NCBI GenBank assembly: GCA_033032175.1
Contig: CM065332.1
Location: 853,501-917,500, forward strand
Source of the DNA: Saturnia japonica
Lineage: Eukaryota > Arthropoda > Insecta > Lepidoptera > Saturniidae
Length of the DNA stretch: 64,000 nucleotides
Direction of reading: 5' to 3'
In this document: positions 15,001-60,000 of the stretch, piece after piece
Numbering within the stretch: position 1 is the first letter of the stretch
How the letters are laid out: each line of letters begins with the position of its first letter
Notes under the pieces: model-generated
What the model saw: only the letters and a program-made list of their open reading frames with translations
Told to the model about the DNA's origin: nothing
The model's database searches: none
Translations under genes and position numbers: made by a program

Positions 15001-18000
15001 AGTAATCATTATCGCAGTCTGAATACAAAGATTAATTAGTACTAGCGATCGCCCTAAAGTCGAAATTCAACCAGCGACTTTTTGATCATACACTATTTTC
15101 TGTTTAACATTTACAGTATTCATTATATTAGTAACCGATATTATAGATAAACTTTAGCTCTCTGCACTCTTTCTCCATATAAACTTTAACCATGCCAAAT
15201 CTACCAGTCTTCCGTGCACGCAATACGCTTAAAAAGATTATAGATGACTTCCTGAACCAAACACATGGCCGACCCTTTTCCATTTCATATGAGGGATTTA
15301 TGAAAGGAAGTGTCATAAGATTAGCAAGCTCACCAAAACAAAAAAAAATAAAATAAAGCGCAATCCAAGAACAGCGTCGGCCATAGAGTATTGTCCAGCT
15401 ATAATATCCAACAGGGACCTCGCACCAAATTAAAGATCAACGAAATACAATAAGTAGTTAGATGAACAATGACTGGTTCTGGATCACAAACAGAGTCACT
15501 GTGACGGGTTATACCCACATACATACATACATGGCATCTAGCATCTGAATAGCAACTCTTAGCATTTCGTTCTTCAGCAAGTTTATTTGTGGACTTTATA
15601 TAATTATATTTACAACATAGAACATGATATTATGTATAAGTTTCCATCGGTAGTAAAAATTCTTAGATGTTTTGAAAGTTTCCAAAATTTTTTCTAATAA
15701 TTTAGCAATTTCTATATAGTATTGACCAAAATATTTACCCTAGAATTACAGCCATGGAAAAAGTCATTACAGTTAAGGCTATAGCCATTCGCTAGTCTAT
15801 ATTATAAAAATATGAAAGTTATAAATAAGTAATACCTCTATTTTTGATTGTTCTTTTGTTCCTTTTATTTCATTAGCTCTCTCGAGTAGTTTGTCTGCCT
15901 CCGTTGACACGTCTTGGATGAAATCCTAAGACAATCACACATATATGTATAGATCACTTTAAAACAAACACTAATCTTACCAACTTCACTGCAGAATTTA
16001 GATAATAATCACAGTAAGCTTATAACCATAATTTTTTGTAAATGTGAGATACTCATAAAAGATGAAAGCGATGACTGTTTTGCGATTTTTGATGAAGCAT
16101 AATAAATTTGATCATCAAATTAATATTAGTATCCGTTCTTAGATTTCATAAAGAGGATGGTATACACTCTATTTGTGGTTTATATCGGTTAACGCAGACA
16201 CAAAAAAACTGACTTTCACAACGCTACTTGCACTTCAATAAAGTTATAAAACTCAAGCTACAAATATTAAGTTTCCTCGCGATGCTTCCTTTCGCTGTCA
16301 GTTTATGTATTTATGAATAAAAAGTTGATTCTGATAAACTCGGTTGAATGATGAGACAGTTGCTACATCGGTATTTAACTGATCTTAACTGTTCGAGTAC
16401 ATCGACTATAATTAACATATTTAATAGTTACCCTCAAATCCACAACGTTAGATTGTTCTTGTCCTTCACGTTTCGGCCTGTACTGCAATAAAACTGTTTG
16501 CAGATTCTGAATTGCATTCTCCAAATTTCGCCTCTTGACTGTGTCCTAAGTTTTAAAAGATATAATTAAAATTTGTTGTTTGTTCTCTAGACCCCCTTAT
16601 AAAAAGCATATTTAACTGCGATTCTCGAAAACTGTATCTGCTGGCGTTATCATTACAGTTTGCAAATATCACGGCAAAATACTTTTGGTTGAATTGTATG
16701 ATAGTAAACATATAATTTTGTTCTATTCTGAAACTGCTAAATAGTCTTCTAGTTAGCAACGATAGCCCTTTGCTAATAGTTAACAGTAGCCTGTACTTAG
16801 ACCTGTAGTCCTAATTGACGCTAGTTACTAATGCCACGTCCCTTTTCACCGTCAATTCCAAGTTTAAAGCTTGTCATCTTTTATAGCAAATTCGTTAGCC
16901 TAATATTTATTTATTTATTATTTTATATTAAATCAGTTACAATTATTATTATTATTATTTTTACTTTAAATATTTATTGTTATTAACTTATACTTTATAT
17001 ATTTAACTTATACTAGTAGATATAAATAAAACACTTCATGCATAGTATGTATTTATTTTAAACACAGCGCAACACATAACTCTCTGGGCATTGAGTGAAA
17101 ATCAGCGCTCGAGGACTCAACCCCCTCCAGTATATATGCTGACTCGAGGCACTTTTGCTACACACACATGTATTCCATTAATTATTAAATTTTGTTTTTT
17201 TTCTTTCTACCTTTTTTTATTTTCTTTTGTTTTGTATGTGTAACAAATAAATGTCTTACTTTCTTTCTTAATTGGAATGAGTTGTAAGAGATCGGATGTC
17301 AGTAGAAATTTCTAACCACTGCTGAGCACTGCTGCTTCTTTGAAGATATGTTTGTCAGTGGTGCTAACGCAGTGAAGCCTTGCACAAATTCTAGATCTCC
17401 TACGTGAACTATCAGTTGGAGTACAACCAATATCTCGAGCTCGTATCCAATATTTGTATCTATAACGAATGATTGACAGACCTGGGGAGCACGACGGGAC
17501 GTATGCGCGGCGAGGTCAGCCTGTGTTAGCGCTTCAGAAAGCTGTTTCGCGTAGTCGTTGTATTTGTTACGCAGGCTCGCCGGTAAATCCATACACTTGG
17601 CCGTTTTCTGAAAGTTGTAAGCGATATTTCAATTATAAACAGTCACCAAGTTTTACAGATTTCTACAAACATCGTGAATATAATAAAGCAAGGTATTTTT
17701 TACTATTAGCTTGATTAATATTCATCCTCAAGTTGAACCTCTTTAACAAATACTTAGCAATGTATTGTCCTCTTTCTAGGTTTAGTTTGTAACCTAACAA
17801 TGACCTAACAATACAACATCGAAATTTTCGGTTATACTAAAAAGATTACCTTCGCATCGTCCATAATTTTGCAGGTCATATTCCTCAGCGGTGTATCTTC
17901 CACCACCAACTTGTCCAACTCACACTGCTGTCCTATATTCCCTCCCGTTACTTCCTTCTTTAACTCCTGTACCAGCTTCTCCAGGTTGTTTGTTTCTCTT

Positions 18001-21000
18001 GCTAATTTCTCGAATGACTTAGCTTGGTGAGGATCAGAGCACTGCGATTTCCACGAATCGGAAAACTTTTGCAAGTAGCTGGAGAGATCGTCGGCTGATG
18101 CTGTGAGAGCATCTTGACAAGTCTGTTTGTATATTGACGGAGACACCAACTGAATAAAAAAGTAATTATTTTAACACTAAAATAACAATAACTGTTAAAT
18201 GTTTTATAGTACCACGGCAATGTGGTGGTACTGTACTTGCTGGTAAGCACAGTACAATCGTAAAACAACAGTGACCACAAAAGGATCGGTAATCCATCGA
18301 CAGTCACCGATAAATGCTGGCCTACAAGCTTCTCCGGATTTGAATATACACTAGCTGATCCCAAAACCTGACAAACCAAAACGAAGTCACTGTGACGGAT
18401 GGTGGTCGTAGCCCAGTTGGGTACATATTTTTACCACTCCGATTATATACTAGTGTTACACTTGGTATATGGTGTCTCGATCCAGTCGGATAAACTTTTC
18501 TTTTCCATCACCCAACAAAAAATATGGACGCAATTTAGAAAAAAAAGAAAGAAAGAAGAAAAAAAAATAGAAAAAGAAAGGATGGGAAATCTTTAAATAA
18601 AAAAACGAAAATTACCATTAACAAAATTTAGACCTCGATAACTGCGTTACGTATTAACCAAAACTGTTTCATCTTTTAAATTGAGCCAAATTATAGATAA
18701 TTACGACATTTGATCAAAATCGGTTCAGTAGTTTCGGAGTTTATCCCGAACATACGTCGTGACGCGGGATTTTTATATACATAATATATATAAGATATGA
18801 CAATGTTTTTTTTTTAAATAAACATGATCGTTGAGATTAACTATATACTCGGACGCCACAACGATCGATATGAGCATAATAGCTTACATTGATATTTTGG
18901 TGAAAGGAAATATCGTGATCAAACCATAGCACCGTGGTAAGTCATTTTTTGGCTATCGGCTTTCCTCCAAGTTTAAAATGATGCCAACTTTGACAACAAC
19001 AAAACTGGTGGAGTTTAAGATAAAAACCTACCGTATAAATGGATTATAGAAATACATGTGACAGGAGCACCAAAAGCTAATGCTCAAAGTCGAAAATTGT
19101 AATAATGGAAAAAAATATTGATCCAGAAGAAAAGTTTGTCATAAATACAAAATTAAAACTCTATAATCTTTTATTTACATTATATTATTTTTTAAAATAA
19201 AAAAAAGTTACTGGCTGTAAATAATGCACATCAAGGTAAAGGGGGAGGTAATCATTAATCGGCTATATTTGGGTTTGTAGATCGTCGTCTCTTTCACACG
19301 TAGCACTAACAGTGCTGGAAAGCAGTAACGATACTGTACAGAGATGTAGACTTTTATTATCGTTATGTGTTTAGCGTTGTTGCCACAGTCTCACTAATCT
19401 TAAGTGACGATGTGGCCCAAGATGGTAACATGCTAAGTCTAGACTGGCTCTCAAGTGCAGCTGCTGGAATACATCTATTGGTGTTTGTCAACAGATTTTC
19501 TACTTCCTTCACCGAATGCTCAGGCTCATTGCAGGGATTCGAACTCACGTTGATCGACGCGGAGTCCGTATACTATCAACTGAGCCATAATTGCTCTTCA
19601 GCTCGATGTGCATTATTTACGACCGATAACTGTACTTAATTTTTGAGATATCATTGTTTCATGCAATTAACTTCATTATACATAATGTAGACAAGTTATC
19701 ATAGAAATGAATTTATTTTCGTCCTACTTAGCCGAATATACCTTTGCAGTATAAAGCAAATTGGTGGCTGCATTTACGGTGTCGACTCCTGCGGCCCACA
19801 CACCTTCCCACGTGGTCCTGCTCTCTCCCTCTCTCGTCAAGGCGTTGGCAGAGACATCCGTCGCTTGTACAGCTAACCGCGATGCGCTGTCACCTATCTC
19901 CTTCGCGCGTAGTATTATCTAATAGTTAACCAAAAATACCATTTACATCAGTAATGTTTACATTTCTCGATGGTCCATTTATCCATGTTCATGTCCATGT
20001 TATTTTTAATTTTACATTTCACTCGTACGTAATAAATAATTTTAAATGAAAACTATGCGTGAGGAAATGTCTTTTCCCAGAGATAAAATGTGAAGGGATT
20101 GAAAAACAACATAATATAAACATTTTTTATATTACCTCCTTTTGCAATGCAGCATCTGCATCAGTGCTGACGAAATACAATAATTTGGCAGATTCATTTC
20201 CAAAGACGATCGCAGCATCTTTAAGTTTCTAAAAAAAAATGGGCCGATAATTTCCTTATCCATACACTTACAGAAAGCAGAAATTCTTAACTTTACTTTT
20301 CAATAACTTAAAATGTGTTTATCATAACGTCTGAAGCAATAATCTACTATATCTTTGAATGTATTTTTTTTTTGTTTTTGCAGAAATTCGGTCTTGAAGG
20401 TGAACATGTATAATAGATGTACTTTAAATAAAACTAAACGTACCTCTTTGTCCTTTTTTGCAGACTCACAAACTTTAGCTGAAGCATCGCATAATCGCAG
20501 CATATCCTCCAAAAACAATTTCCTTTCTTCGTTGTTTAATGACGAACTAAAGGACTTACCGTCTGAAAAATTATACCATTTTAAATATCATGGACTCGTA
20601 AAAACACATTTGTTGAATACGGAACAAGAACAGAGTTTGATAATTAAAAAAAAAACATACGAATAAGGAATGCCGCATTTAATATATATATATATCTATT
20701 TTTCTATTTTGGATGAAGCAACAAATAAAGTTCCACTTTTTTTTATTTATTAGCGGGGCAAAATATTTCAAAATGGATAATTAGTACAAATCAATTCAAA
20801 ATGTAACGGCATTTTAGTCAGTATATTTAAAAAATCTATTTTGAGTAGAAATTATTTAAACGAAATACATATATGCCGTTTACGATAAATCTATTTAGAT
20901 GTCATCTGATATTATGTTACCTTCCACAATTGAAGTCATAAGTTGAGGTAGAGTAGTCATCGACTTGCACGCGTTAGGGTAATCTAATTTTTCAGCATCT

Positions 21001-24000
21001 GTAATATTATCCATTATTATTCTTCACTTACAGGAACTATGTATGACTTATTATTAGAAAATTATCTCTTTGGACCTTTTATTTTCGTTTACACAGTCGA
21101 CCAATAACCAAATACTTTTATAAATCGCAAAAAATTATAAGTTGTTTAACCTCGGTAAGGTTTTAGATTACAGAACTTAGCCTCAGAAATTGTTAACGTA
21201 TCATAATAATTTCCATTAACCTAAACTTTGATTACATAACCAAATGTGTTTTCATGTAATAGTAAGTATAAATTCATATTTCAAAGAAGTAATAATGAAA
21301 TTCAACTCGTAGAAATTGTGAACAATTTACTTACGGTTAGCAGTAATCAGTGATGCCACTTCCACGCCAGCCAAAGCTAGCTTATCTTCTATTTGGTCTT
21401 GTATATTTACCGCTTCACTAGTACTCACAGTTGGTCCAAGAACTGACTTATTTTCATATTTACACATCTAAAACATAGTTTCTAATTAAGACTAGAAATT
21501 GAGATGATAATGTGTTTTAGAGATATACACTCCGTGTATATCTGTCATGTATCAGATACAGGCCAAGCTCACAATGTAAACGAAAAATTCAAAAAAGATA
21601 ACATTTCTTAGTATTTAGAAGCCATAATAATTACTAATTGTTCTATTAATGAACCAAATGACCAAAAACCGCCTAATAAAATACAGCTGATGAAAAGACA
21701 CAACAAAGATGATTCCGTGAATATTTCCTAGAAGAAATCATCTTCCAAATAATAGAAAAAGAAGATGAACAAAAAGAAGATATTTACATTATTTTGAATG
21801 GTTAATTTAACATTATTTTATTAAAATAAAGTTTATGTAGATATTCTTGAAAGTAGCAACTCATGCATTATTCCAGATATCAAGTTATCATAGCAGTCAG
21901 TGGCCATACAAAATCAACCTCAAATAGGAGTTGTGTTCTTTATAGTTATTAAAAGATACTCCTAAAATTTGAAACGTTAAAACCTTCAAACCGAAACATG
22001 GCTAGTGATCGCATAATGGTAATGAATCAGCAACTCGCAATTTTGTTACTAACCGAAGTAATAAAATACTTACATTCTTCAAGTCGTATGCGGCCTTCTG
22101 TATAATCTTCTCTGCTTCATCAATAGACTGGACATACTGTTGATGAAGTCGTTTCTCCTTGTCATCGACACGCTTCGGTGGAATAGGAGGTGCGGGTCTG
22201 GTTTTATTTATCGAAGCGTTTGGTGCTTGCGTTTGAGCTGAGAAAGAATAAGAAAGATTCATCATCCGCTCATTAATGCCTGGTTCCTATAACAAACGAG
22301 TCGTCATTCTATATTCGCTACCATTCGTTTTTGAATTTATCGCAACGAGCTGTTACAGACGATCCTAAAACTTTTTACGTCTGCTACCAGCGACTAACGG
22401 TTGTCGGTTCGCCCGCATACCGAAGCCCTCCGAGGCGTCATTGCGTTTTGTTGTTACAGACAAGTTTATTTTGAATACAAATTTAATATAATGTACAAAA
22501 TGTTATATTTAATGCAAGTATACAAAAAAACGAAAATATATTGTCATTATAAAAAAATACTACTTTTTGGCGCTCGCTCTGTAGTGACCGAAACGCAACA
22601 ATGTCCAACCAAATAAACGAAACTTTCTCTTTCCTGACACTAATTACTTGTACTTACCCTAAACATAAATTTTGTAATCTTCTTATTGCATGTGCTAGTA
22701 TTGTATTGGTAGGTAACTTACATACATACCTAATTTAGTTCAAAAAATGTCAAATAAATTAAATACTCAATAAATTGGACTGATATTCTATTGTATTTGT
22801 TAATTAAATTATACAAAACTTAAAAATGTATGATCAAATACGAAGTGGCTTTACTAGTGGATTTAATACAAAGCAATCTAATAATTACTCGTAAGAATTC
22901 CGTCACCTCCAAAAACATAAAAGATATATTACCGATAAGGATTTCTTTGATAATTTTATTTAACGTCAAAAGTCGAAGTTAAAATAGGACAATTTAAGAA
23001 AGGCAGACTGAAACAATGGGAACAGATGTGTATATTTGAGCCACATTGTTTAAAGGAAACAAAAGGTTTTTTAATATGTTTAAGGTAAAAATAAGGCAAA
23101 CCGATTATACATTTAATTAAAGTTTATTCCAATATATTATGTATTATATAGTATTTTATTTAATATAACATTTATATGCAGGATAGGCATTGCGCAACCA
23201 ACACTACAAGATTCCAATAAATGCTAAATTCTTGTTTGGTCATTTCGTAGTAACACCACATTCTTCATCATAACTAGAAACTTCAATATAATTAATAAAT
23301 ATTAACGAAAACACGTAAAACAAATAGTCAACCGGCCGATTTCGGTCGGTAACCAAATCATAAACGTCTAGTAATTTTAACAACTTTTCGTTGTGTCAAA
23401 ATGTTTATGGAAACACTACAAGCGGTCATTCCCATACATTTTCCCTACTAGCCGTTATTCGTATCCCTCCCAACCATACGAAGCACGTCATTGGTAACTT
23501 AGCTGTTAAACCGCTTTCTATAGGAATGCTTTTAGCGTACGCCTGGTCGAAAATACTACCGTTGGTAAGCAAAACGAATCTTTGCTTATAGGAACCGGCG
23601 GTGAGTTGTGTTATCAATGTTAGAGTTTTTTCTAAATTGATAAACATTTTTTTACTCTGATTTACAATCTTCGTTATTATAATGTACATACCTTGGGCTT
23701 CTTCCAAACGCATGTTATCCAAGAAACCTTGGGTAAGGTCAACATTTTTTGCCTTACCAGGTATGGGATGCGCTATTAGCTTCGACGCTATAGCTGGTTT
23801 TACTTTGACACCAGATACACCAGCTGGAAATGATGTTGATGAATAAGAAAGATTCGGAAAATTAGCTGGTCTGCTATTTTGTTTTATAATGAAAAAAAAA
23901 ACACAAGGAGCAGTGGATAATATTGTAGGGGTTTTCTTCATTATGATAAGGGACAATTATATTAATATCTATTCTAAGAGTAGAAAACTCAAGAATGGGG

Positions 24001-27000
24001 CGTGGTTAGCTGTTTCACGTCGCTGCAAGCTCAGAGTGGTCGGGGAGGAGGTTGAGGTGGCGGCGGGCGCAGCGTACTCACCGCCTCGGTCACTTCGTTC
24101 TTGGCTTCAGGGATAGACGAGCGTTACACACTCGCGTAGTGATCTCGTAGTTACTAGTTATCCAATTTTGGTCGTTTAAGGATAATTGTTATTTTAGTTT
24201 GTTTTAATTCTATTTTTTTATATCTTCAGTTTTAATTTCTAATTCTATATAAATAAAACGATAACAGACTGACTGCCAACATATCAACACACAGCCCAAA
24301 CTACTGGGGCAAGGGCCGTTAAAATTTGCATGAAGCTTTCTTTTACACTGTAGCTGAGCACTAAGGAATAATTTTAAGAAATTCAACCCCTAAGGTGGTG
24401 AAAATAGAATGAAATTTTGAATGAAAACCCGTAATTTTAAAGACAGATCTATGAAAATTGGTATTTGGTGAGTGGTAGGTAGTGGTGGCATGATAAATTA
24501 ACACTAAATTTATGAACACGATAAATGACCCTAAACGCAGAATAATTGACCCGATTTTGGCTTACTTATAAACGTTGATAGCTCGCAGAAGAAACAGTTA
24601 TTGAGCCAGTGCATATTATCACAGCTTAGACTGGGTTATAATAGGGAAATATGTCTGGCTGTGATAATTACACTTTCGAACCTTGCACAGATTCTGTCTC
24701 TCTTGTAATAATGAAGTCAAAGAATATCAGAATAAAGTTAGGGTTCACCTGGTGGAATGTCATGGTACGATTTCCTAATCTTATTCAACATGTCTTCTAA
24801 ACGTCGTAGCTCTGTATCTAAAGCTCGACGCTGCTGGTTATCCGGTAACTTGCTCCATGATCTCGACAACAACTGACTTGCTGACCACAAACCATCTACA
24901 GAAGACAGTAAGGCCGACTGGCACTGAGGATCTGAGATTGATGGAGCCATCACCTAATACCATAAAAAATATGAAATTTTTAAGGGCTTAATGTAAATGA
25001 ACAAACAATTGATATTTAGTTGTTTCCGTGGTAAATGTAAGGTTGTATCATTTCTTAAGGATGTAGTAATTTTTAAATCGTATGAAATCTTAAATGCTGA
25101 GAGATGTACAAACATTAAGCCTGCCTTAAATTATAAGAGGAAAAGCATACTACTGTTTACACAATCTACGACTATGATTCAGTGTTTCCCGATCAAGTTT
25201 CTTGTCGGTTCTTCTCGATGGCTGGGATGTTTTCTGAACCTGTGGTAGTATTTTGACGTTTATTCATAAGTGCCTTCTTAGAGCTAAATTGTATAAAGAC
25301 TGTTATGATTTCGATTTAGTTAACGCTCGAGCTCGAGTTTTAAATTCTACTACGTGTTTATTATCCATCTTCAAACCGAACGCCTTTGCGAAGAATCTGC
25401 CGGTGTATTTCTGTAGTTGCACTTGAAGGCCGTTCTGGACTTTAACAATTTAACTGTATAGAATCTTTACCAGAAAAACAAAATATTATTAATAACCTGA
25501 GAAGCAGACAGAAATGCTTGTGTAGCATCAGCGACTTTTCCTCCCTCAGTATCCAGCTCCTGTCTTGTGTCTGCATCAGACTGTACTGCGAGCTGTTGTA
25601 CACTCGTTAACAGCTGGAACGCTGCACCGCAAGCACCCATAGATAAATCCATGATCTAGAAATTTTGCAGTTATCTCGATGTGTATTTATTATTCATAGT
25701 AGCATGGCAAATTGAAGATGCTGTTCCTGATGGTAAGTACAGTACAACGATGGTTGCCGCTGTCATGCCAACCTGCATAAATTTAAATGAATATGCACAG
25801 GCTGATCCCATAACGCGACATGCAAAAGCGAGTCAATATGATGGACTTTTCACCTTATGCGTGATGGTCACGACCCAATTGAAAAAACAACCCTACCACC
25901 CCGCTATCGCCATTTTGGCGATCCTCGTTCGTTACTCAGCAGAGTGCACAACGAGCAGGTGGGGATGACTAGAGCGTCCCGGTTTTATAGATGTAACTGA
26001 ACACTTTTAAGTAGAAATTTTATGTTACAAATATGCAAATTAATTAGAAAAATAAAATCATGCTATTTAACTGACCTGCTGACCCTTATCGACGTCTGCC
26101 TTAAGAGGCGGTCTGAACGCGTAAGTTAAGTTTCCTGATGCTGCAGCATACTTCTCCGCAGAGTCATTCAGTTCCTGGATAATATTAACAATAACATGAG
26201 AGGACAATCTCACACACGTCTCACGATAATTATTAAACTAATCATGTAAATGACGATTATATTATATCGTCCCGTGTTTTCATCGTATGTACTATCTCCA
26301 GGATTTTTTTACTGCGAGGCGTGTATAGTTTTTTTTAATTGACTTCAACAAGTGGCCGAGGTTCTCAGTTTGATTGTATTTTTTTATGGATGTTCAGGCA
26401 TAACTTCTTTGTTTATAAACTGTTTTAGATTATTATGTTTATTAGTTGGAAAGGGGATACCTCAAGGCGGTCCCATTTTAATTTTATTGGCCTTTGAATT
26501 TCAAACACGAAGATACACCAGGGATCTCTTCAAAATCATTGTAATTGGTTTCCTTTTTTGTTAAAAATTGTCTTGTTATGCTTAGCGTTTGATTGCCATC
26601 TCACCTGATGTTAGATGACGATGTAGTCTAAGATTGTAATCGACCGGAAGAAACCTATAAGGATTAGAGACAGATTTTTCACTTCAGATTTTACTAAATC
26701 TTGTCCTGGAAAGCGACGAAAGAAAGTAAGAAGCTAATTGTAAGGGAGAGGAGAAAACAATGACTTCTTTGATATCATTCCATTGTAAGGTTTTGGCTTT
26801 GTTTTTTTTTTCTACAAATATTGAGCTCCCCTGAGCTTCTTGGAGTTCAGTTAACATCTGATCTAAAAATGGAGCGTACGATCGAGATAAAGGTGAGAAC
26901 AGCTGCCAAGAAATTGGGGATACTCTTTAAGTTTAGGCGGTATTTCAAACCGAACCAGTTTCTTAGCTTGTATCAAGCACAGGTACGCTCTTGTATAAAA

Positions 27001-30000
27001 ATATTGCTGTCACCTATGGGATGAATCAGCCAAATATGAATTGGCCGCTCTTGATTCCATTGAGTGCCGAGCTCGTCGAATTGTTGGCGATGAAGCACTG
27101 ATGAGGGCAAAAAGCTCATTCTAGAGCATCGTCGCAAGTTAGCTTGCCTCTCAGTGTTTTACAGGTGGAGAGTGTGCACAGAAATTGCACGATTTAATTC
27201 CGCCCAATCCGCTCCATCATAGGACAACTAGACGCCGTGAAGGATTCCACGATTAGGTCGTGGAAATTCCACTGAATCTCATGAAACGTTATGCTTCGTC
27301 GATCATTATGCGAACGGCAAAGGAGTGGAATTCACTCCCGTCGTCTGTTTTCGCATCCACCTATAACTTAGGAGTCTTCAAGCGAAGAGCGAATAGGCAT
27401 TTAATAGGTAAGCGCGATACGTCGTCGGCCTCATCTTTACTTTCCATCAGGTAAGATCGAAGCCAAGCGCATACCTGTATTGCATAAAAAACCTCAATTT
27501 AAGGTTCATCAAACATCCTAGCAAAACATAAAATAACCACTTTTCTATTCATTTTAACCAACAATGTGCTTTGGTCTTCTGGGCTATTCCTATTTCAGAT
27601 CATTATTTTTAACTTTTACTAATTTGCAGTATGATTTCATTCACCTTATTGTGAGGTCCAGCGTTGGCACAAATTGCTTTACTGGCATCGCAGAGGGAAC
27701 GGATGTGATCCAACATGGCTCTACGTTCTGCTGGTTCCATTGTAGAACTCAACGCCTTCGAGTCTTGAAATATAGATGAATATTTTATTGCATTTATAAA
27801 AAGAATTGTATGAATGTCCTGCGTATCAGATGTTATCTATGACCAATCAGTTTCTATTCCTAGAGATCTATCAAAATAATAGTGAAAAAATAACGACACA
27901 TTAACTGTGCATCAGACTGGAAACTGAAATGAACAGAATTTCAAGACGCATTGGAATAATACAGCTTACATAACGGAATATAGAAAAAACCCTGTATGTA
28001 TTATACCCTGTTGCTTTGAATCATCACATGATACAATGAGCTGACTACGAATTTCCAGCTGCTGAAATAACATAACAAAAAACGAGTAATTAAAACTTCA
28101 TCACCAACGATAATTAGTCTGTTTATGGAGTACTGGTATTAAGTTTCTGACCTTGCTAAGACTCACCTTTGATAACATCTGGAAGCAGCAGGGTGACGAC
28201 ACCGACTGCCTGTTCAGCTGTTGCATAATCAGGATTCAAACGATCTGGTAATTAGTTTAGATTTTAGTTTTGACAACACTTGATGTTGCGCATTTGGGCA
28301 TTAGTGTAGTGATGCTCCAATAGTTCTCCGAAATAGACTGTTGAAATCTCATCCATTTCTTTAATTTACGTACAATAAGTTTTTCGAATTTGATTAGTTC
28401 AGATCAAGATCACCACTTTAAATAAAATACAAAATTTTGTTATACAAGGAATAGACAGTGTGTATCATCTCCCGCGAAGAAGCTTCTAAATAACAATTTC
28501 GGCTCAAATTTATCAGAACTGTATGTATTCGGAGTATCGAGACAATTTCGAACAAGATATTACCTTAATTTGAAATTTGGTTTTGTATCGATGGTAGTAT
28601 TATATTTGAATTACTCACTTGATGTGGCTGTTAGGAGAGAAGCGATTGCCGCATTTAGTTGTGCTAATTTCTGTGACAATTTATCTTTCAATATCGCACC
28701 GTCTTCTTTCTTTATTGGTGTACTGGGAGCTGGCTGTTGTAAAATCCTATCTTTTAGAACTTAATTAACAAACTTCATATAAAGATAAAATTGCCAATAT
28801 AAATGAATATAAGTAAACAACATAAAGACCTAAATACCAAAACACAACTTTTACGACGATATAGTCAACTCAGTTTTGCAATAATGATATAAGTATATCT
28901 TAAAACTAAAAATCAGAGAAAACCTATATCTTAAAACAATAAAAAAATGTATGAACCCAGCAGTCACTGGAGAATCAACAATAAGCCAAACATTCAATCC
29001 ATAATAAATATTAGATCACGTATCAAGATTATAACTGCAGACTCTCAAGAATAGGTATCATCTTACCTTTTTCAGCTCATCGTCGGCAGCTTGCAGCCAT
29101 TTCTGTGCTTGAGCCATTGTACTAATAAACTTCAAACGCTCTGTTTCTTGAGGTGATGGCGCTTGGAACTCCAATGTTGCTAATTTTCCTGATATAATGA
29201 CAACATAAATAAAAAAAAAAGTTAATCGTAAGCTTAAAATAAAAAAAGCGATTATTAAAAAACCCTTATTTTATAATTTTAAGTTTTCACTTCTATCAGC
29301 AGTCCTCAATTACTGTTTTTTATATACAGTTCATGTCTAGTTTACCTTCCAGTAAATATACTCATTCAATATTTTGGTCTAATATCTTTGATCGCGTAAC
29401 CTTAAGAAACTACTCTATTTATTCCAATGAAACTAGGATCATAAAAGTTAATTACGTCACGCCTCTTTCCCAACGGGGTAGGCAGAGACCATATCCTTTC
29501 ACATGCTACGATCTTGGCATACACATCTTTCGCTTCTTCAACATTCATCAATCTTTTTAGGCATGCTCGTTGGTTTAGAGTACTCTTGGCCTAACTTTTC
29601 TTTAGAACGTTAGCGATTTGATCGTGGAACGTTCGTCTAGGCTTTCCTCTTCCAACGTTTCCATTCACAGTTGTCTTATAAATCTATCTAGGTTTTCTTC
29701 TTTCAATCAACCTGTCTACATGCCTAAACCATCTAAACATCCCTTTCTCAATCCGTGTATCAATCTCTTCTCTTACACCACAACGTTCTCATGTCACATT
29801 ATTTTTTATCCTGTCACTCAATTTCACTCCTATCATACTTTTTAATGCTCTCATTTCTACTTCATTTAAAGCTATTTTCATTCTTTTTCTGCTACACCCA
29901 GCTTTCACTTCCATACATGAGTGTTGGAACTAACACTCTTCTATGTACATAATTTTTTTATTTTAAGTCATGTGGATACGGCTCATTCAGGTTTTATGAA

Positions 30001-48000: not shown

Positions 48001-51000
48001 TCATCAAGATTTCTAAAATGTTTTGTGTATTTAAGTTTATTATTATATTTTGATCTATCATTTCATGTTCGGCAACATCATCAACGAATCATCAGTTACT
48101 TATTATCATTCATGATCAATAATTTCATGGATTACAGTAACAGATGATAATTTTATCAAATCATAAACATCTGCTATTTACATATATCTATCATTGTTCC
48201 ATATCAACTTAACCACAGCATCTCGTAAATAATATAAAAATTTATGAACAAACGCAAGAATGTAAAAACAGAAACTAATAATTGTGATAAGTTTATTGGC
48301 ATATCTGCGACGATTGTAATATTACAAATAAAGGGGGCGCGTGTCTCTTTGGCAGCTGAATTTAAGAACCAGTCTCCTTTAGACCATATCGTGATTTAAT
48401 ATCAATTAAGATTCTTCTTTAGCGCTTTAGGTTTACATAAAAAGTCATCATCTGCTCCTAACCGTTTTCGGTTACAGTGACCACTTGAACTCTTCATTCA
48501 AACAGTCTGACTGTTCCGCCGTTTCGTGTGCACGTACACGACTGATGTACCCTATCTTCGCCGTAAACGTGCGGTCACACTTGGTGCAAATCAGAACACC
48601 ATCACAATAGTTATAACTTACAGCTGCAGGTAATCTAGTTTTCAGTTTATAAGGCTTTTTGTCCAGCTCTTATTTTCTTCTATCCTCAAAAGTGTAAATT
48701 TTTTGGTTTAAAAAGTTCCTCAACTCTGAACGTTTCTCAGCAGTTGATAAAATTCATGTGAAGTTGGTACAAAAAGAGGAAAAAAGAACATCAAAGAATT
48801 GTACCTGCTGTTCTTTGTCGCTATCCACCTTTCGTGTAGGCTTGAAAACAAATACTAATTTTCCTGAAGCGTCCGTGTAATTTGCTATCGAGTCATTTAA
48901 TCCCTGAAAAGAAACAGTCGATCTATAACATTACTGGGTTATATTTTAATTGTGTATCGAGAGTTCGTGTCTTAGAATTATTCAAAGAATCTTAAAGTTA
49001 GTAATAATTCATAATGATAATAGAAACCATCACAAATGTTAATAGTATAGAATTTGAAAAAAAAATTACCTGATTTCCAACACCTGCGTTAGCGCATATC
49101 TCTTGACTAGCATCAGATAAAGCGCGGATTTGATCCAAGAATGCTTTTCTTTCAGCTGGATCCTTAGTAGAACTCAGGGTCTTTGCATCTTAAAGGAAGA
49201 CGAGATGATTATTGAAAACGAATACATAATAGTTGTTATTTTTTCTATAGTAGCACACCAAAGAAACTGCATGCCTGATGGTAAGCACATTACAATCTAA
49301 AAATAATGGTGACCACTGAGAAATCCTGTGATCCATCGCCCGTCGCCGCTGTCCTGCCTGCGGGCAAGCCGCTCGACCACTGCTATATGCTAACTGATCC
49401 CGAAACGCGAATAACATTTAATTCGTTGAAAGAGACAAGGGAACACGGTCGCGCGGATCACGCACACATTGAAATATATTCAGTCCCATTAAACCAATAA
49501 ACAATTTCTAAATCAGCATGCTTCGAAGTTTCTCCCTTCCTTTAAACGTTATCAGTATGTCCATACATCAATTAAATTCATTCTCGACATTGTGACTCTA
49601 CAATCTTATCGAATATATAAGCAAGCCGCATTCCAACACAGAACAGTTCTATCATGGACATCAGAGCAAATACAAGAAGTGATGAATGAAAGAAATGTAA
49701 TTTCATCGTAGTTACCCAGAGAATACTACTATATCTATAGACTTTTCCTATGGATTACGACTGCGACTGAGAACACGTACTGCAAACGATAGATATTTTA
49801 CTACCGATGGGTGTAATAATATAAAGAAACATTTAAAAAAATGTCTCTACAACTTACCCTTTATAAGGTCAGGAAGTAGTTCGCTGATAGTGTTGACTGC
49901 TAGTTCTGCTGTGATATAATCTGGATTTTCTCGGTCTGAATAAAATAATAGAAATAAGTTCAATTAATCTTCAAGATTCAGTTTTAAATCGGTCAATAAT
50001 GACCACTCTACTAAATATGAAAAAATTAAAAGCAGATAAAAATTATAATTTTTCTTCCTCATAATGGTAATAAAATCCTTTTTTACTTAATATTATATAG
50101 GATAACATTGTAAAGTGATTTTTTTAAAGATGAACGTGAATTCTGTAAGGTAAAATGTAGTAACGTATGAAAAAGAGTATCACGGTCGATAGTGTACAAT
50201 GATATAAGCTCCAGTTATTGCTTCCTCCTCGGTTGCAAGTCTGTCATGTATCGATAGTCAAGTTCTAAATTATTTATCTCCTTTACCCCAATACAGACCG
50301 CAATAAATACCTCACGAACCACAGAGTGCAGATAGATTTATACAAACAATAGAGGTAGTGAGTCTACCTTAATACAGTCTAAAGTGGCTACCCTGAGAAA
50401 AATGTATCACAAATAATATTCAACATACTTTAAAATAAATCTTAAAGGTATGATAATAAATTCTTATTAATGCCAGACAAACATTACCTGAAGTGGCTGT
50501 CAGCAAAGATGCGATGGCAGCATTTAGACGCGCCAACTTCTGTGACAACTGGTCTTGCAACTTCGCACCGTCTTCTTCTCTCATCGGAGCACAGATATCG
50601 GGCTACAATTACAACGTAAGTTATTGCGTTAAGTGAAATCTCGTCACTAGAAAAACACGCAACACATGCAGATAAACTCTTCGCAGTCAGTCTTTTTTAG
50701 TTTATTGAGTTTAGGGATCAGCTGTTGAGTACCCAGCTGGCGAGAAGCTCGAAAGAAAATAAAAAATTAAGCTAAAAAAGCATTTAAGTAAAGCGCTTAA
50801 AATAAAAATAATCTCTTGGAGAAAAATAAAGAATCACTAAGATCTCCTACGAGATTACTAAAGAATTTCCATAAATGCCATGTAGCGACATCTCTCGCCA
50901 CAACTGACGCATCAACGCATCGACACAACTACGTAGCGACACATAGCAACATCTATCGAGCCACATAGGATGCATCCCTACTATCCTACATTGCGCTATA

Positions 51001-54000
51001 GAAATTCACTCTATCGTTGAGTATATATACAAGAACCCGACTACAACAGTCGGGGCAGCTGCCCGCCAGACATAGCACCCGTCTGGCCGGAGGATCCTCC
51101 CTTTTCTATGGCGGATGAGGAACTTTACTCTCTGTTCCTCACTTCCGCTAAAGCCAAAATTACAAAATTTCACTGTATTTCATTCCGCTTTAATCACATT
51201 AGATCAAAGCTCTATTAAAGATAATTGGAATCTTCATAAAAATTGACACGTAAAACTTAAAATATAAAAAAATCCATAACAGCTCGACTGTAAATAGCTT
51301 TAGATTACCTTATTCAACTCATCGTTAGCAGCTTGAAAACGTTTCTTGGCTCCAGAAGTAGTCTTGATGAACTTGAGCCGTTGTATCTCCTGTGGAGATG
51401 TGATGCTGTCACCAACATCTCCATCATCTTCGATTGAAAAAGTTAAAATAAGTAAAAAAAATTGTCACATGATTTGTAATAAAGTTTCAGTAATGTCGCA
51501 CACGGAGCATAAAAACACATTAAGAGATAGCAATGGGGAATGCTTCTCTCGCGCGGATTGGATAACCGGATTGAACCTTTGCATGATTCTACAGTATTTA
51601 TCACCGCCATACCTTCTTCTGTAATAAAAGACCACTGTTTGCACTTTTATGTTTTGTTGTACATGGCAAACACAATTGATAACACAAGCTATCATATCAG
51701 CTGTTACATAAAAAGAAATTGCGCGTGAATCACAGTACACGTGATAGAAGTGAAACTTCTTAAAAGGGAGATACGGTTAGCCTAAACTATGTATTTGATA
51801 TACAATCATAGCCCTCTTTCTCCTTCTCACTAGGTATATTAAATCTTTCTTCTTTCTCATATAAAGAAATATGCCTAAATGTGACGCCTCCTTGAAATTT
51901 CGCTTTCAATTCTCGTCCAATTATCGAATCTAAGAAGTTTCACAAAATAGAGTTACGAACCTGGTAGCCGGCAAGCATTGTTGAGCGCGTCGAGAGCCTC
52001 GGCGAGGGTGGTGGCTCGAGTGCGCAACTCTTGGGCACGTTGGTGATGGTCCGGTAAATGCAGGAGTGGACGGCAGGAGGAGACTACGCGCTGTGCTGCT
52101 CCCGAAACTGACTCGGAGGCAGCTGCCAGCGCACCCACACATACAGGTTGCCCTGATCTTCCAGCTGTCACCTATACAAAAACACACCTGTATCTGTGTT
52201 CATCTACAATTCTGCCAAAGTGAAATAAACAGAATATAGATCAATCTTATAATCGTCCAATACAACCCTAACAAGATGGCGGCTTGCTTGTTGGAACAGT
52301 CCAAGGTTAAAGTAGGTCCAAACTTAAAGTACGTGTTCCTATAATTTCACGTCAAATGCCGACAAAATTACATAATATAGAAAGAAATAAGATTATTTAT
52401 ATGTATTAAAATAAAAACCACCAAAAAACAGATCAAGATCCAAACAAAAACTCAGTCCTTTATCCTAACTATTACAGAATCTCTCTATCCAACCTTATTA
52501 ATCTATCTTTTTAAGGTATTAAAATTCAATGCAGATCCACAAATATCCAGTGGACGGGGAGTCCACGAGGAGTCAGCGTCCAAATATTATAGTGTCTAAT
52601 AAAGTTAAATAAAGAATTACAAGCTTCAATATAGTTAAAGAATGTAATTTTATATGGGCTAAATATTTAACATAAAAATAGAAGAACGTGAAGAAAATTT
52701 AATAAGAAATCTAAAATATGGTTTGCTTTTAGTCAGGATAATACCAGACTCTTAAAGAACAGATAATATTACAATAACAGAAGCTACGCAATCGGATGGT
52801 TTACATAATCATATTACGCGTGCTTTACAAAATATTTAAATCAAAATAAAAAATATTTTAATCAATTTAAGCCCTAAGAATCCACTCATATCAATTCAAC
52901 ACCACCGGTTCATAAATCATCCCAGTTATCGATTAAAGCCGGCAAAAAGCTCGTGATAATCACAATTTTTTTTTCAGTATTGTTTTTATACACTATATTG
53001 TTTTATTTATTTATTTATTTACACACTATGCGTTAAATACGCAATGGCGGACTTAATGCCTAAGGCATTCTCTGCCAGTCAACCATTAGGTGATGCAGAG
53101 ATAAATGTTGGTAGGTGTAAAAAGTAAGGGGGGTTTTTGAAATTATGTTTAACCAATTTAATATCACAATATATAAATAAAATATCAACACCAAAACATA
53201 ATATATATAACACATATATAATACATATATACTACACATATACAATATGTTTTACAGATATCATTATTAGTAGATGATGTACAGAGAGGGTGTTCGCTTC
53301 CAGACATCACTATAATTCACGTTATGATAGACCCTATAAGGCCTTTCCACAATAAAACATTCTTTACATGATTCTTGAACTTATTGTCCGGAAAATCGTA
53401 CAAGAAGTTTATTATAGGACCTAACACCATTTTATTTGTCTTACTAAGCCTAAATAAAATAAAGGTTTACTAATTTTCTATTTTTACGATAGAAATTGCG
53501 CCTTTCGCTTAAAATCAGTTAGTCAGTGAATCAGTGAATGTAACTATTTTTACCTAATCTACTGTTTTAAACATTGCAATCTAAAATGAAGACTATTATA
53601 TAAACCTGAGCACAAGCTAATAAGTCCTTAGCGCAGTTAAGAGCGTGAGCTTCGGCTTCTTCAATGTCCTTAGATGTAGGCTCGTCAGCATGACCTCGAA
53701 ACTTGTTTGCCGTCATTACCAGCGCTGATGTATGATCTCCTACAGCCTTAGCCAGGTCTATTATCTAAAATATATATAATTATATATATATATAACGCAA
53801 CAAAACACATATACAAAAGAGTTACAATTATGTTACTGTTTAATTTAAGATTTGATCAAATATTTTAAAATTACTTATCTTTCATCTAGCATCATAAATT
53901 CATCAGCTTTAGTTCATGTAAGAAAAAACATTGAAAGACCACAAAGAGTTACGAATAGTAACTTTATTTGACTTACTTCATGTTCTTTCTCAGGATTTGC

Positions 54001-57000
54001 GCTACGTCCTAAAGTAAATACCAGCTTTCTTGATGCATCAGCATATTTGCTTGAAGCTTCTTGCATTTTCTGTGAACAATACTTAAGTGTTAGCTGAATT
54101 TGCTACATTATTAATTTTGTAATTCTGTTCGTATACATGTTTTCGTGATAGACATCTTCTAAAGAATAATGATCACGAATACGATATTTTTTTGTCTGTT
54201 TGTCCCTCCAGTATTTCTGTCCATATTTAACACAAAACCAAATGGTAAATAGGTTACAAGAATTAAACTCAATAACGATTAGAATTTTATAAACATAAAA
54301 TTAATTCTCAACTAATCTTGTTAAAGTGTTGTAAACGGAAAGTGTTTGTTATTCCTCAATTGAGATAGGTTATTAGAATTCTCAATAATATAAGTAAATA
54401 TAAAATTACGTTAAGAAACTAATCATTTTGAAATAAATACGTGTAGCCGTAAGGCATCGCAAGTAATATCAAGAAATTGATTAAAGGTTTTCAGGTGTGT
54501 TACTCATACTGTGCCAGCATATTCGTATATCCATAAACGAATCGCCTTCTTAAAACTCTACTGGACATTATCAGAGCGGACTCTCAAGTTAGGGCCCACC
54601 TTTTACACAATTTATCTCAGATCCAGTAAATTTTATCTTCGAATGAACAACAGTTAGCCTTAATACAATTTTGGATTTTGCTGATCTAAGTAAAATAGCG
54701 TATAAATACCTCATGATCCTCACTTCCAGTAACCGTGCATGTTTTTTTCATAGAATCACATAGACCCCTGAGTTCATCAAGCAGCTGCTGTCGTGAACAA
54801 CCATCTTTGGCACTGCCTAAAGCTTGTACGTCTGGAATAGACAATGTACCATGAAAAGTAGCAAGAGTACTTACTTACTTATTAAGCTCATTGACCTCAC
54901 TGACCTTAAAATAGCTAGGATTATTAATTTTTTTTTTGCTATTTTTTAGAATGTATCCCGTATTGATAAAAAATATAGTAAGACAAGATAAAGATATAGT
55001 AAGTTTAAAGTTTCGTTCAGAACAGAAATTTTTTACTTTATTGATATTAAACATCTATAATGTGGCAGGTCAGACCAGTTGTTGGCATGGCGACGTGTTG
55101 GTCCCAACGTTGGCGACTGTTGGCGTGGCGACGCTTTGTGAAACCGAGATCGTTTTTTAAATAGACAGACTAGATCATTTAAAGTTTCATGTTAAAACAT
55201 GGATAGATTAAAAGTGGTTGGTAGATATCACGACCACCATACACATAGTAACTAAATAAACATCTTCACGTGACTTTCTTTTGCTTTGTTGTGTTTCGGA
55301 ATCACCCAGTTGGTTTTTATTCATACTTTTTTTCATTTATTTTTGTATATTCAGTAAGATGTTTCACGTCTGCCGAGCGTTCCGTTGCGGCCAACTTTTT
55401 TATCATTCAATAGATAGACATATTTAATAAAAAACTTGAACATTAACTCATTTAATTCCTTTAAAATAATATACATTTAGTTTTAATATAACATTGATAC
55501 CTTAGTGGCCATCAGTTTATGTTTTTTGAGCTAATAACGTAAAAGTGCGAATTATAATTGATTATGTTACAAATTAAAATGTGCATATCTACTAATGAAA
55601 GAGCTTGGATGTAAATACAAAAGTTTTACTTACTATATTGAAAAAAAATGAGATTAATAATTTCCAAATAATAAAGACATACGTACCTTTAACCAACTCC
55701 GGCACTAATTCCTTGATAGTGTTCATGGAGTTTACCGCTGTTGAATAGTCGATCACTTTCGGATCTGTAATTTAATTGAATCTTAACCCGTTTGCAAAAT
55801 CTGCTAGTGGCAAAGCAAACTAAAAGTCTTTTTCTTTTATTGAAAAATGTATTGATGTCGTAAAAATATATGGCGATAGATTTCTAACTCTATTTAGAAC
55901 TAAAACTTTAACAATTATACCTTATTTTGATTTCGCTATTTTGTTTCATTATTAAGTAATAATCCATCAAGAAAGAAAATAATTAAAAATATTGCATTGG
56001 GTTGAACGTGGAAACTAAATCGCAACATTTTTTTCACTGCAAATCAAAATTTTCACCACGCTCATTCATCGTAATTAAATTTTCTTTTGAATTTATCTTC
56101 ATAATTCCAAATAATGGGGCGGGAAATGTAAGTTTATAAATTCAATACCGTAACCAATTTATTAACATTCTCATTACAATGCGATAACATACCAGAATGA
56201 GCTGTCAGATAAAGCGCTACAGCGGCATTCAGTTTTCCAATCTTGTCAGCCGCTGCTCGCTCTGTCTCCTCAAGCTTCTCCTTGTTTAGAGCTGGTCCTT
56301 TATATGTCTGAAAAGTAATTACTTGTTTATCTCTTTTAACCTTAATTCTCATTGTCAATGTAAAAATAAAGCTTATTTTCGAAAGTTCAAGTGCAATATC
56401 TTTTCAAACTTTATCAATAATTAATCCAGTGGTTCTTGACTTATTGAAAGTTTATTCTTCTTCTACTATTTCTCCAACTACTGCAGATTAAAAATCACCT
56501 ACATACCAACTGTGTTCATTGGTCCCAATACAGTAACATTTTTCAACAGCTTTGTTATAAGTCAAGTAAGACTAAGTAGTAATAAGTAGTAGTAGTAAAT
56601 AATAGTAGTAGTAGTAGTAGTAAAAGTAGTAATCAATGCATCCTACCGGTCATGATCTATGGAGCCAAAACGTGCAAACTCACGGTTGAACTGGTTCACA
56701 AATTTCAAGGTATGAAAATAGATATTCCCGGGGTTTCTTTGAAGGATACAATCAGAAATGTAGTATTCAGACAGATAACTAGGGCTATTGACATAGCTCA
56801 AAGGATTAGCTCGCTGAAGTTGCAATGGGCTGGTCACATATGCCAAAGAACTGATAACCGATTAGGTAGACGGAGTTTAGGAGTGGAGACCGCGTTTATA
56901 TAAACGAAGTGTGTGACGCTCTTCTACAAGATTGAGCAACGACCTGCGCAGGGTGGTTGGATTCGACTGGATGAGAAGGACTGAACATCTGGTCCAGTGT

Positions 57001-60000
57001 CAATTTTTGAGCAAGGCCTATGTTCAGCAGTGGATAGATACAGGCTGATAGTGATCCTCAATCTGGCAACTACTCCACCAGTAAATAGTTGTAATATGTA
57101 GGTGAAGATTCAAGGTTGCATATTCAAGATTTATAAAAAAAAATCATAACAATAAGGATAATGATTCGACTTTCTGTAAATGTACAATATGAAACAAAAT
57201 ATAAAATGCCTGTACTATAAAGATTAGGTAGTGATTCGCTGTTCTGAGTATCTATATTGTGAAAATCCATGTCTATCGGGATCGTGATTACCTGATAGAC
57301 GTCTCTGTCAGCGTCATCGAGTATGTGTAGTGCAGTGGAAGCTGCTGCTATGAATGATGCTCTTCGGAGACTTGAATCGATCCTTTCGTCTTCTTTGAAG
57401 CTTTTACGAGAACGCTAAAAATGTTGATACGTTAGTTATATACTTTTAAAGAAAACATATTATAAAAAATATATATTACTTTAAGCTCAGAATACCTGGC
57501 TTACTCTTAACACCGAAGATGTTAGAAGTTTAGGCCTTACAAATTTAATATGGGATTTTTATTGGCAGTATACTAACATTCAGAAGATCGCTTCGTCGTT
57601 TAGTCCTCGGATCCATAGAGAAATACATTTTTGTCGTCAGGTCTGCTATATTCTTCGCAGCATTTTCAGCGTCATGTGGATTCTAAAATGAAATTTATGT
57701 CTTACTAGCGTTTGGAAAAAAAATATTACGATAACTTATATACAAAGTAAAAAACAGTAAATTTTATTATTCACAAAATCTATTAAAAGGTTAACCCTAT
57801 GGTTGCCTATGCACATCTGTAGAATTCAAATACGTTGTTTAATTAGATTAGAATTAGATAGAATTTAAGTTGATAGAAACCATGTAGAATTTACATAGAA
57901 AAGCGTCTCTATAATAACTCTTTTAAACCGCTCAGCGTCGTACTTTACTGTTTTCTTTAGGTCAGAAGAATTAAGTGCAAATGAAAGAGGTTTTTATACA
58001 TTAGCTATTAGAAGTAGCCTTGTTTGCGACTGATCTCATAGAGAAATAGTTCCTAACAGGGCCTCAAAATTTTTGTTTAATGTTCACCAACTTACAACTT
58101 TCCCAGTAGCTGTAGAATCTGTCAACGTCTTAACAAATTCAGATAGGTCCTGAAGATCATTCAATAGCTTCTGCTTCTCTTCTTCGGTGGATTGCTTCTC
58201 TGCGGTCTTCGTTATACCTAAGTAAATTATATTCTATAAGCAGTAAACACATGTATGCCCAATGTCTACCCAAACTAAGATATTTTATTAACTAAATAAA
58301 AACATTGATAAAAACTGAAAGGCCTATGTCACAATGTGACTTTTGTAGCGCGTAGTATTTGCATGATCAACTAATAACGATTCTTGTTTTAAAGTGATAA
58401 GGAATCCTATCCTGTTGTATTCCGCAGATATGCTTGTGTTGAAGAAAAAAAAATTTCAGTAGCAGCGTGTACGGACTCTACGTTGATCAACATGATTTCG
58501 AATACTTGCAATGAGCCAGAGTTTTCGATAAAGGAAAACATCGTGATGAAATCATGGTATTTTCTAATACCCTATTTTCTAGATATCACCCTCAAGTTGT
58601 AAATCTGTCACCAAGCATCTATAGGTGTGTTCCGGCAGCTGCACTTGAGAGCCAGTTTTTCACTAGGCTTGGCGTGTTACCATCTTTGGTCACAACGTCG
58701 CTAACGGTAAAGCGGTGTAAAATAGTAAATTAAAAAAAATATATTCACAGAAAGGCTGTTACTCTAATGAAATACTTACCAACGTTCAGCACCGGCATGA
58801 TTTCCCTGTTTATAGTATCAACAGTTCTTTGCACTTCTCTTATATTCTGCTCATTAGGATCTGAAACATTAAATTTTCGTTTTAGTATATTCAAAGATGA
58901 AATATTATCGTTGGATGACAGTATGTTACCATATTAATTTTTAAAGATTTTTACAGGCATTGCATTCCTTATAGGGTGAGCATATACGTCTTGAAAATCA
59001 AACGATGTAAGTTCAAAACATAACCTTTGTTGAAAGAAAACACCATGATGTGACACTAGTGTCTTCGATTTTATAATCATAATTTTTAAACGCAAACCTG
59101 GACCAAAATAAAACAAATCTAAAAATAATAAATATTACGTACCCGTTAGTAGAGTAACTATGCTAACTGACATAGTGTTCAAACGATTTAGCCGCCTCAC
59201 GCAATCCATTGGCATGTCGGTACGCATTGGTACTTCACCTTTCTGAGCCATGAGAAAATTGTATTTTATTTTATACATTAACAAATCTTGAAATTCACGA
59301 TGTGCCTGATTTATTTTATGCATATAGTAATACAACCATACGCAGTATTATTACTTAACAAGAGATTAGATTGTGTTAAAAGGCATTGTTATAATAAACT
59401 GAATAAGCTACTGTGCTTCAAGTATAAAATTATTTTGCCTTACTATTAAGAAGAAAATAATGAAGAAATGCTAACAGTCTATTGGAAAATGAGTCTACAT
59501 AAATATATTGAGGACTACCTTAAAAACACCGTAGGTACCTTCATCAGGAATAATTGGTTAAAATTCAAATTCTGCTATATCCTTTATTAGAGAATTAGCT
59601 ATTTAAGGCTGGCTATACTTTGAAGCTAGGGTAGGAGCTATGAACATCTGCATGAAAAAGATCCACGATAACTCATTGGGATTCATCAGCGTCGGTTAAA
59701 TCATTGTGTAACAATATCATTTAAACTAAAAGAAATGAGCAATTTCATACAATCGATTTTAGTCTAAACTTAAGACTTATAGTATTAGGAAATTTGATAA
59801 TGATTGAATATACTTACGACAGCTTGCTGCTGCTTATTGACCTGATCAGCGACAACAATTTGGTGCTTGTTGACTATTTGGGCCCCTCCTTGTAATACAT
59901 GCTCTGTAAGAAGCATTTAATGTATGCAATGTAAAATCAATTTGTGGATACTCGTCAGAAATTCTCCTTAGTCGAATGGATTGCAGCAACTGCTTTAAAA

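Follow-up and report, generated by a model that had tools for sequence, protein, structure and literature searches.

A Second Talin Gene with a Probable Vinculin End in Saturnia japonica

The stretch of DNA analyzed here, referred to as the window, comprises 64,000 nucleotides from the genome of the moth Saturnia japonica (GCA_033032175.1, contig CM065332.1, positions 853,501 to 917,500). Its minus strand carries exons for a talin-like FERM head, seven tandem cassettes related to the talin rod domains R1-R2, further rod up to R7-R8, and a vinculin D3-like region (Table 1). We consider it very probable that the window contains the greater part of a lepidopteran fusion of a duplicated talin (FERM head, seven R1-R2 units, and rod to R7-R8) with the D3 and tail regions of a duplicated vinculin. 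Exon-length arithmetic puts the whole fusion at about 4,000 residues, compared with 4,060 to 4,647 residues for the longest listed isoforms of Bombyx and Manduca. The reference sequences and domain probes used throughout are those of human TLN1 and vinculin.

Table 1. Parts of the probable fusion gene in and next to the window, from head to tail (positions without a contig name are those of the window; cassette exons in the order G-F-E-D-C-B-A)
Feature	Position	Strand	Exons	Remark
FERM F2 lobe exon	63629..63797	-		head extends upstream of window to ~C29:937077
FERM F3 exon	62397..62572	-		KTY where canonical talins have RRW
F3 end and linker start	61573..61728	-
Linker exon	60261..60352	-		92 nt, phase 2 to 1; like canonical exon C28:10638949-10638858
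Linker exon	59818..59903	-
"Cassette 0"	57578..59242	-	four (100, 81, 122, 105 nt)	degenerate R1-like segment
R1-R2 cassette 1	51961..57414	-	57414-57292, 56307-56193, 55764-55687, 54831-54710, 54069-53977, 53764-53606, 52171-51961	first-cassette clade in tree
R1-R2 cassette 2	46526..51427	-	51427-51309, 50602-50488, 49935-49858, 49188-49070, 48903-48805, 47764-47606, 46730-46526	constrained exon search
R1-R2 cassette 3	42458..46379	-	46379-46264, 45337-45223, 45139-45062, 44765-44647, 44031-43933, 42984-42826, 42662-42458	constrained exon search
R1-R2 cassette 4	37361..42074	-	42074-41953, 41515-41401, 41096-41019, 40658-40540, 38776-38678, 37937-37779, 37565-37361	897 nt; Pfam Talin_middle 2.9e-8
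R1-R2 cassette 5	30168..36378	-	36378-36257, 35977-35863, 32405-32328, 32108-31990, 31612-31513 (frame lost), 31258-31100, 30372-30168	constrained exon search
R1-R2 cassette 6	24749..29188	-	29188-29067, 28733-28619, 28244-28167, 27763-27645, 26174-26076, 25655-25497, 24953-24749	897 nt; constrained exon search
R1-R2 cassette 7	17850..22237	-	22237-22074, 21467-21335, 20998-20921, 20562-20444, 20228-20136, 19918-19742, 18149-17850	long variant, 1064 nt; last-cassette clade in tree
Rest of talin-like rod up to R7-R8	4058..17607	-	16
Vinculin D3-like exons	28..3507	-	3507-3405, 3314-3205, 1795-1665, 1149-1001, 922-857, 139-28
Vinculin tail of fusion	C29:849684 to ~846715			beyond window

Exon Structure of the R1-R2 Array

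The original prediction, made from the letters of the window alone, had described a series of seven exons, G-F-E-D-C-B-A, that recurs seven times between positions 57414 and 17850. This series was recovered when exons were required to have AG/GT borders and matching phases, and the low ends of the B exons (53606, 47606, 42826, 37779, 31100, 25497, and 19742) were reproduced in all seven cases. The proposed exon lengths held as well: exon E measures 78 nt in every cassette (7/7), exon F 115 nt in six of the seven (133 nt in cassette 7), exon D 119 nt in six (122 nt in cassette 1), exon B 159 nt in six (177 nt in cassette 7), and exon C 99 nt in four (93, 100, and 93 nt in cassettes 1, 5, and 7). 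Cassettes 4 and 6 sum to exactly 897 nt each, as had been stated, and cassettes 1, 2, 3, 5, and 7 to 901, 894, 891, 898, and 1064 nt; in these five, the borders of the odd-length exons come from splice-site lists and gene prediction. A comparison of the window with itself revealed direct-repeat families that are 60-92% alike at a spacing of 3.8-8.7 kb, and all-against-all BLASTP of the open frames on the minus strand returned the expected exon clusters.

All 49 cassette exons are bordered by AG and GT, and 48 of them keep the reading frame. The exception is exon C of cassette 5, which is one base longer (100 nt) than the usual 99 nt and thereby loses the frame; since exon C has phase 0 at both ends, skipping it would preserve the frame. 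When this exon is left out, the head, both linker exons, and all seven cassettes together encode 2612 residues free of stops. Cassettes 2-6 both start and end in phase 1, so that whole units can be added or skipped with the frame intact; the phase is 0 at the start of cassette 1 and at the end of cassette 7. Most full-length relatives likewise show a partial match resembling "cassette 0" ahead of their first cassette.

The identification of the cassettes as talin R1-R2 was upheld by sequence alignment, PDB match, fold match, and the human R1R2 probe. The translated cassettes align end to end with residues 482-786 of human talin, their best PDB sequence match is 1SJ8 (E 1.1e-14, profile search), and the predicted structure of a cassette is a nine-helix model that aligns to talin 488-784. 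The probe matched 66 of 66 related proteins, a set that combines the matches of a search with the cassette and of a search with the Manduca tail and includes some fragments and isoforms. The ordinary talin of the same genome contains R1-R2 once, as the original prediction had said for talin, and its R1-R2 exon borders coincide with those of the cassettes within a few residues. Four borders are common to both and have equal phases (G/F, 0; F/E, 1; D/C, 0; C/B, 0), and exons E and D are fused into one in the ordinary gene. This exon structure points to a descent of the cassettes from talin. With 6442 nt, or 2147 residues, against 305 residues for a single unit, the array makes for roughly 1,840 extra residues; the substantial lengthening that had been predicted stands, at a value slightly above the estimated range of 1,500-1,800.

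The window also holds transposase-like sequences and a further repeat. Pieces of a Mariner/Mos1-like transposase (33857-34132 and 34410-34712, plus strand; HTH_48 3.6e-14, Transposase_1 5.3e-18) sit in the intron between exons F and E of cassette 5, which is 3457 nt long. Open frames at 39047-39820 (plus strand), within the intron that separates exons D and C of cassette 4, look transposase-like by eye; the part 39293-39820 gave no Pfam match. A repeat present in several copies occupies positions 9752-10655 (minus strand).

The Talin Part Belongs to a Diverged Paralogue

The array had been assigned to the rod of the ordinary talin, and this part of the original prediction was not borne out: the ordinary gene lies on another contig, C28, and the gene in the window is a diverged second talin. 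The Talin_middle matches of the genome to an ordinary talin with a single R1-R2 fall on C28; human talin-1 matches the part of this contig retrieved first, with much of residues 1-2114 covered, and the C28 gene model extends to the I/LWEQ domain. Human talin matches hardly more than the head in the gene of the window.

The assembled head is that of a FERM protein with an F0 lobe, as judged from its Pfam matches (FERM_M 4.6e-26, FERM_f0 7.8e-25, IRS/PTB 2.7e-24, and also FERM_N). In a tree of 22 heads, the ten paralogues form one group (100/100) that is separate from the canonical talins. The window copy is 77% identical to the Manduca paralogue, and the C28 copy is 96% identical to the canonical talin of Bombyx. 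At the positions of the F3 lobe that correspond to human R358 and W359, all ten paralogues carry T or S and Y or F; RRW is found in all nine readable canonical insect talins, two further canonical rows lacking that stretch. These two residues are known for their role in the binding of integrin tails. Their replacement means that the receptor preference or affinity of the head may differ from that of ordinary talin.

The Vinculin Part and the Junction

A profile built from 21 tails matched human TLN1 over residues 670-1653 (6.7e-48; R3-R6 are not assigned individually) and human VCL over residues 488-796 (2.7e-19) and 962-1130 (6.2e-67). Among the 66 related proteins, the R7R8 probe matched 60 (in P0003 residues 3545-3831 at 2.1e-17), and the probes for vinculin D3 and the vinculin tail matched 57 each. 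The probes for talin R9 and R13 and for vinculin D1 and D2 matched none of the 66 at E<1e-3, the best D1 match in P0003 having an E of 0.65; PF01608 (I/LWEQ) gave no match at E <= 0.01 in P0003 or P0006. The Pfam Vinculin model gave 8.6e-50 for the tail exons that lie beyond the window, 1.4e-14 for the tail model, and 2.9e-66 and 3.9e-65 for the relatives P0006 and P0003. The vinculin tail domain is thus present by Pfam and by probe, and its binding of actin is predicted. The tail of the fusion is 61% identical to the vinculin of its own genome and 49% to human vinculin. In the Manduca protein, R7-R8 extends to residue 3831 and vinculin D3 begins with residue 3863, a junction that maps between the window exons 4195-4058 and 3507-3405.

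Distribution, Cassette Number, and Isoforms

The cassette search returned 34 matches, 26 of which carry Pfam Vinculin. This domain is present in all 53 matches of the Manduca-tail search; 51 of these are named, all from Lepidoptera, and many are isoforms of one gene. Altogether, the vinculin-bearing fusion occurs in 34 named species, all of them Lepidoptera, which we take to belong to the Tortricidae, Pyralidae, Crambidae, Noctuidae, Erebidae, Bombycidae, Sphingidae, Lasiocampidae, Papilionidae, Pieridae, Nymphalidae, and Lycaenidae. Plutella, early-branching Lepidoptera, and Trichoptera were absent from the matches listed, which had passed length and word filters and in one list were 120 of 3053. 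Among these 120 of 3053 matches, the fusion and a canonical I/LWEQ talin-1 are found together in Manduca, Bombyx, Spodoptera frugiperda, Vanessa cardui, Pieris rapae, Aricia agestis, Helicoverpa zea, and Trichoplusia ni. The fusion coexists with ordinary talin and ordinary vinculin. In databases, the fusions bear the names of ordinary genes ("talin-1-like," "talin-2," "talin-B," and "Vinculin"): the longest Bombyx fusion isoform, P0006, is called talin-2 and another, P0010, talin-1, the name also given to the canonical Bombyx proteins among the matches listed.

Counting in relatives, which had been suggested along with the original prediction, gave 4 to 10 full cassettes among the 66 proteins. 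A tree built from human R1-R2 and 63 near-full-length cassettes of ten genes unites the first cassettes of all ten genes in one group (96/100) and eight of the ten last cassettes in another (94/100), those of Vanessa and Pieris falling outside. The middle cassettes cluster mostly by species, and adjacent ones are up to 97% identical in Bombyx, up to 99% in Spodoptera, and 51-81% in Manduca. Eight annotated isoform pairs from three genes differ by the deletion of one or two cassettes (289 or 578 residues in Manduca; 286 or 572 in Bombyx; 296, 592, or 580 in Spodoptera) and otherwise by at most a few single residues. On the other caveat of the original prediction, cDNA that lacks most cassettes, the annotated isoforms of relatives thus show the loss of one or two.

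In P0001 of Mythimna separata, the last part of the array (residues ~3361-3889) holds more than 10 tandem copies of a ~39-residue half of exon B. One contig of Spodoptera frugiperda accounts for seventeen of the proteins listed (P0039-P0055); their isoform numbers go up to X49, and they have 8 to 10 full cassettes.

Probable Origin Beside Vinculin

A Pfam search of the genome detected, besides the tail exons of the fusion, vinculin-family genes on contig C31 and at C29:958952-984397. The latter is an ordinary vinculin by its N-terminus, proline-rich stretch, and C-terminus; the former presumably resembles alpha-catenin, to go by one exon. The same strand carries both genes, with ~22 kb between the end of the ordinary vinculin and the first coding exon of the fusion downstream, and all five tail introns compared agree between the two genes in position and phase. 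Given this placement of vinculin directly upstream, the simplest reading is that the fusion arose by duplication at the DNA level, the front part of a talin copy probably having been inserted into a tandem copy of vinculin.

Alternative Readings of the Locus

The FERM head and the R1-R2 identity of the cassettes would also fit an ordinary talin gene whose rod was lengthened by tandem duplication, as the original prediction had it. We hold this to be very improbable in view of the single-R1-R2 talin on C28, the separate grouping of the paralogue heads, and the related proteins, which lack matches to R9 and R13 and end as vinculin. Hardly any chance is left, in our view, to a decaying pseudogene or an assembly expansion, to which the loss of frame in two exons of the assembled gene would lend itself: exon C of cassette 5 (31612-31513) and an exon just before the vinculin tail, whose frame changes midway (C29:851944-851780). 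An exon of the ordinary talin in the same assembly (C28:10589665-10589422) is likewise out of frame, which favors assembly errors without proving them, and all cassette exons but one are in frame. Adjacent cassettes of the window gene are 27-75% identical in protein (middle neighbors 53-75%), and dN/dS is 0.08-0.21 in seven of the ten pairs of cassettes 2-6, dS being saturated in the other three (each pair was computed without exons that differ in length and without exon C of cassette 5). By this measure, the cassettes are under purifying selection. Copies that have diverged under such selection argue against an artefact, and an expansion by the assembly, a caveat of the original prediction, is excluded by this divergence together with the vinculin-bearing orthologues in the 34 species.

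Gene prediction might also have merged two adjacent genes, a talin paralogue and a truncated copy of vinculin. The junction in S. japonica comes from genomic exon chaining, yet the resulting chain of 23 exons, which runs from 17607 past the end of the window, is open and in phase across it; the exon immediately before the junction (4197-4057) is 65% identical to Manduca, and the vinculin part lies within the same annotated protein in 53 of 53 Manduca-tail matches. We therefore regard a merger as improbable. A number of points nevertheless weigh against the fusion as we read it. The splice sites of the chain were picked by a script in the neighborhood of positions that the Manduca protein suggested, and a chain with different anchors and tighter limits broke down at one exon; the structure of the fusion in S. 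japonica is known from its genome sequence alone, in which two exons lose the frame, and its adjacency to vinculin from this one genome. By Pfam, vinculin begins one to three exons before the start given by the domain probes, which leaves the exact border between talin and vinculin unsure. The D4 probe matched 0 of the 66 proteins, so that D4 is covered by the profile match to VCL 488-796 alone. BLASTP without composition correction aligned P0003 3430-3567 with TLN1 2399-2537 at 8e-5, and P0002 of Anticarsia gemmatalis, an isoform of nine full cassettes that lacks the vinculin part, carries a precomputed I/LWEQ label (PF01608). Since the cassettes of Bombyx and Spodoptera are 92-99% identical, the isoforms may be artefacts of read mapping or annotation, less so in Manduca with its middle neighbors at 51-81%. 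Finally, the role of the fusion as an adhesion tether is a proposed one.

Proposed Function of the Fusion

In the textbook account of mechanosensing, talin and vinculin act as a pair, vinculin binding after force has opened the talin rod. In the fusion, a talin head on the membrane side and a vinculin tail on the actin side would form a pre-assembled tether between membrane and actin. With the vinculin tail covalently attached, no force-dependent recruitment would be needed, and with D1 absent, there would be neither recruitment through D1 nor head-tail inhibition, so that the link would always be on. The head may have an altered receptor preference. The R1-R2 array could act as a row of mechanical switches and thus as an extensible buffer, its length set in whole R1-R2 units by evolution and perhaps by splicing. 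In human talin, R2 gives way near 15 pN and R1 near 25 pN, and R1R2 lengthens by ~115 nm when it unfolds (PMC9997659); if the moth cassettes behave like human R1R2, seven of them could pay out ~800 nm.

We give about an even chance to the view that the chimera is a tunable, always-engaged adhesion spring: the clutch partners would be united in one polypeptide without the vinculin head, and its length would be adjusted through lineage-specific amplification and cassette splicing, perhaps in plasmatocytes and perhaps at a receptor that differs from the usual integrin tail. That the repeats are mainly docking sites rather than a spring seems unlikely to us. Human R2 binds RIAM, and R1 and R2 together hold three vinculin-binding helices (PMC9997659), which would suit docking; in the alignment, however, the motif of R1 helix 4 is, by eye, polar in the cassettes where the human protein has buried residues. 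As to the cells concerned, a single-cell study of the Bombyx pupal wing labels plasmatocytes with "talin-2" (PMC13373240), and this marker, as named in the excerpt, may be the fusion gene. The "Talin-2-like" contig of Heliothis hemocytes, with a best match in Bombus (PMC4553588), is perhaps ordinary talin.

Relation to Known Systems

With talin (human TLN1, lepidopteran talin-1, and Drosophila rhea), the fusion has in common the FERM lobes F0-F3, the fold and intron phases of R1-R2, and the rod to R7-R8. It differs in having seven R1-R2 units here (4-10 in relatives) instead of one, vinculin in place of the undetected R9 and R13, and T/S-Y/F in place of RW in F3. With vinculin (VCL), it shares the D3-like region, the tail with its intron positions, and the C-terminal WVRK; unlike VCL, it has no detected D1 or D2 and is attached to a talin head and rod. 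Titin-like modular springs likewise place foldable units in a row between two anchors and tune their number by splicing, although their fold is unrelated and their location in the cell is different. In the human TLN1 exon 17b isoform, alternative splicing alters the mechanics of the R1-R2 unit, as proposed here, but it affects 17 residues inside one R1-R2 rather than whole units (PMC9997659). The excerpt of PMC12192672 concerns an ordinary talin-1 of a lacewing, and that of PMC12686525 mentions neither "Lepidoptera" nor "insect." In the open PMC literature, the titles and abstract beginnings among the matches listed describe neither the fusion nor a repeated R1-R2, closed papers and outside preprints being beyond this scope.

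The fusion would constitute a natural experiment on whether adhesion needs the recruitment of vinculin or simply a tie between talin head and vinculin tail. Its varying number of R1-R2 units between a well-conserved head and tail may likewise serve as a natural test of how rod length affects force transmission. It is present, alongside the ordinary genes, in the tractable Bombyx, Manduca, and Spodoptera.

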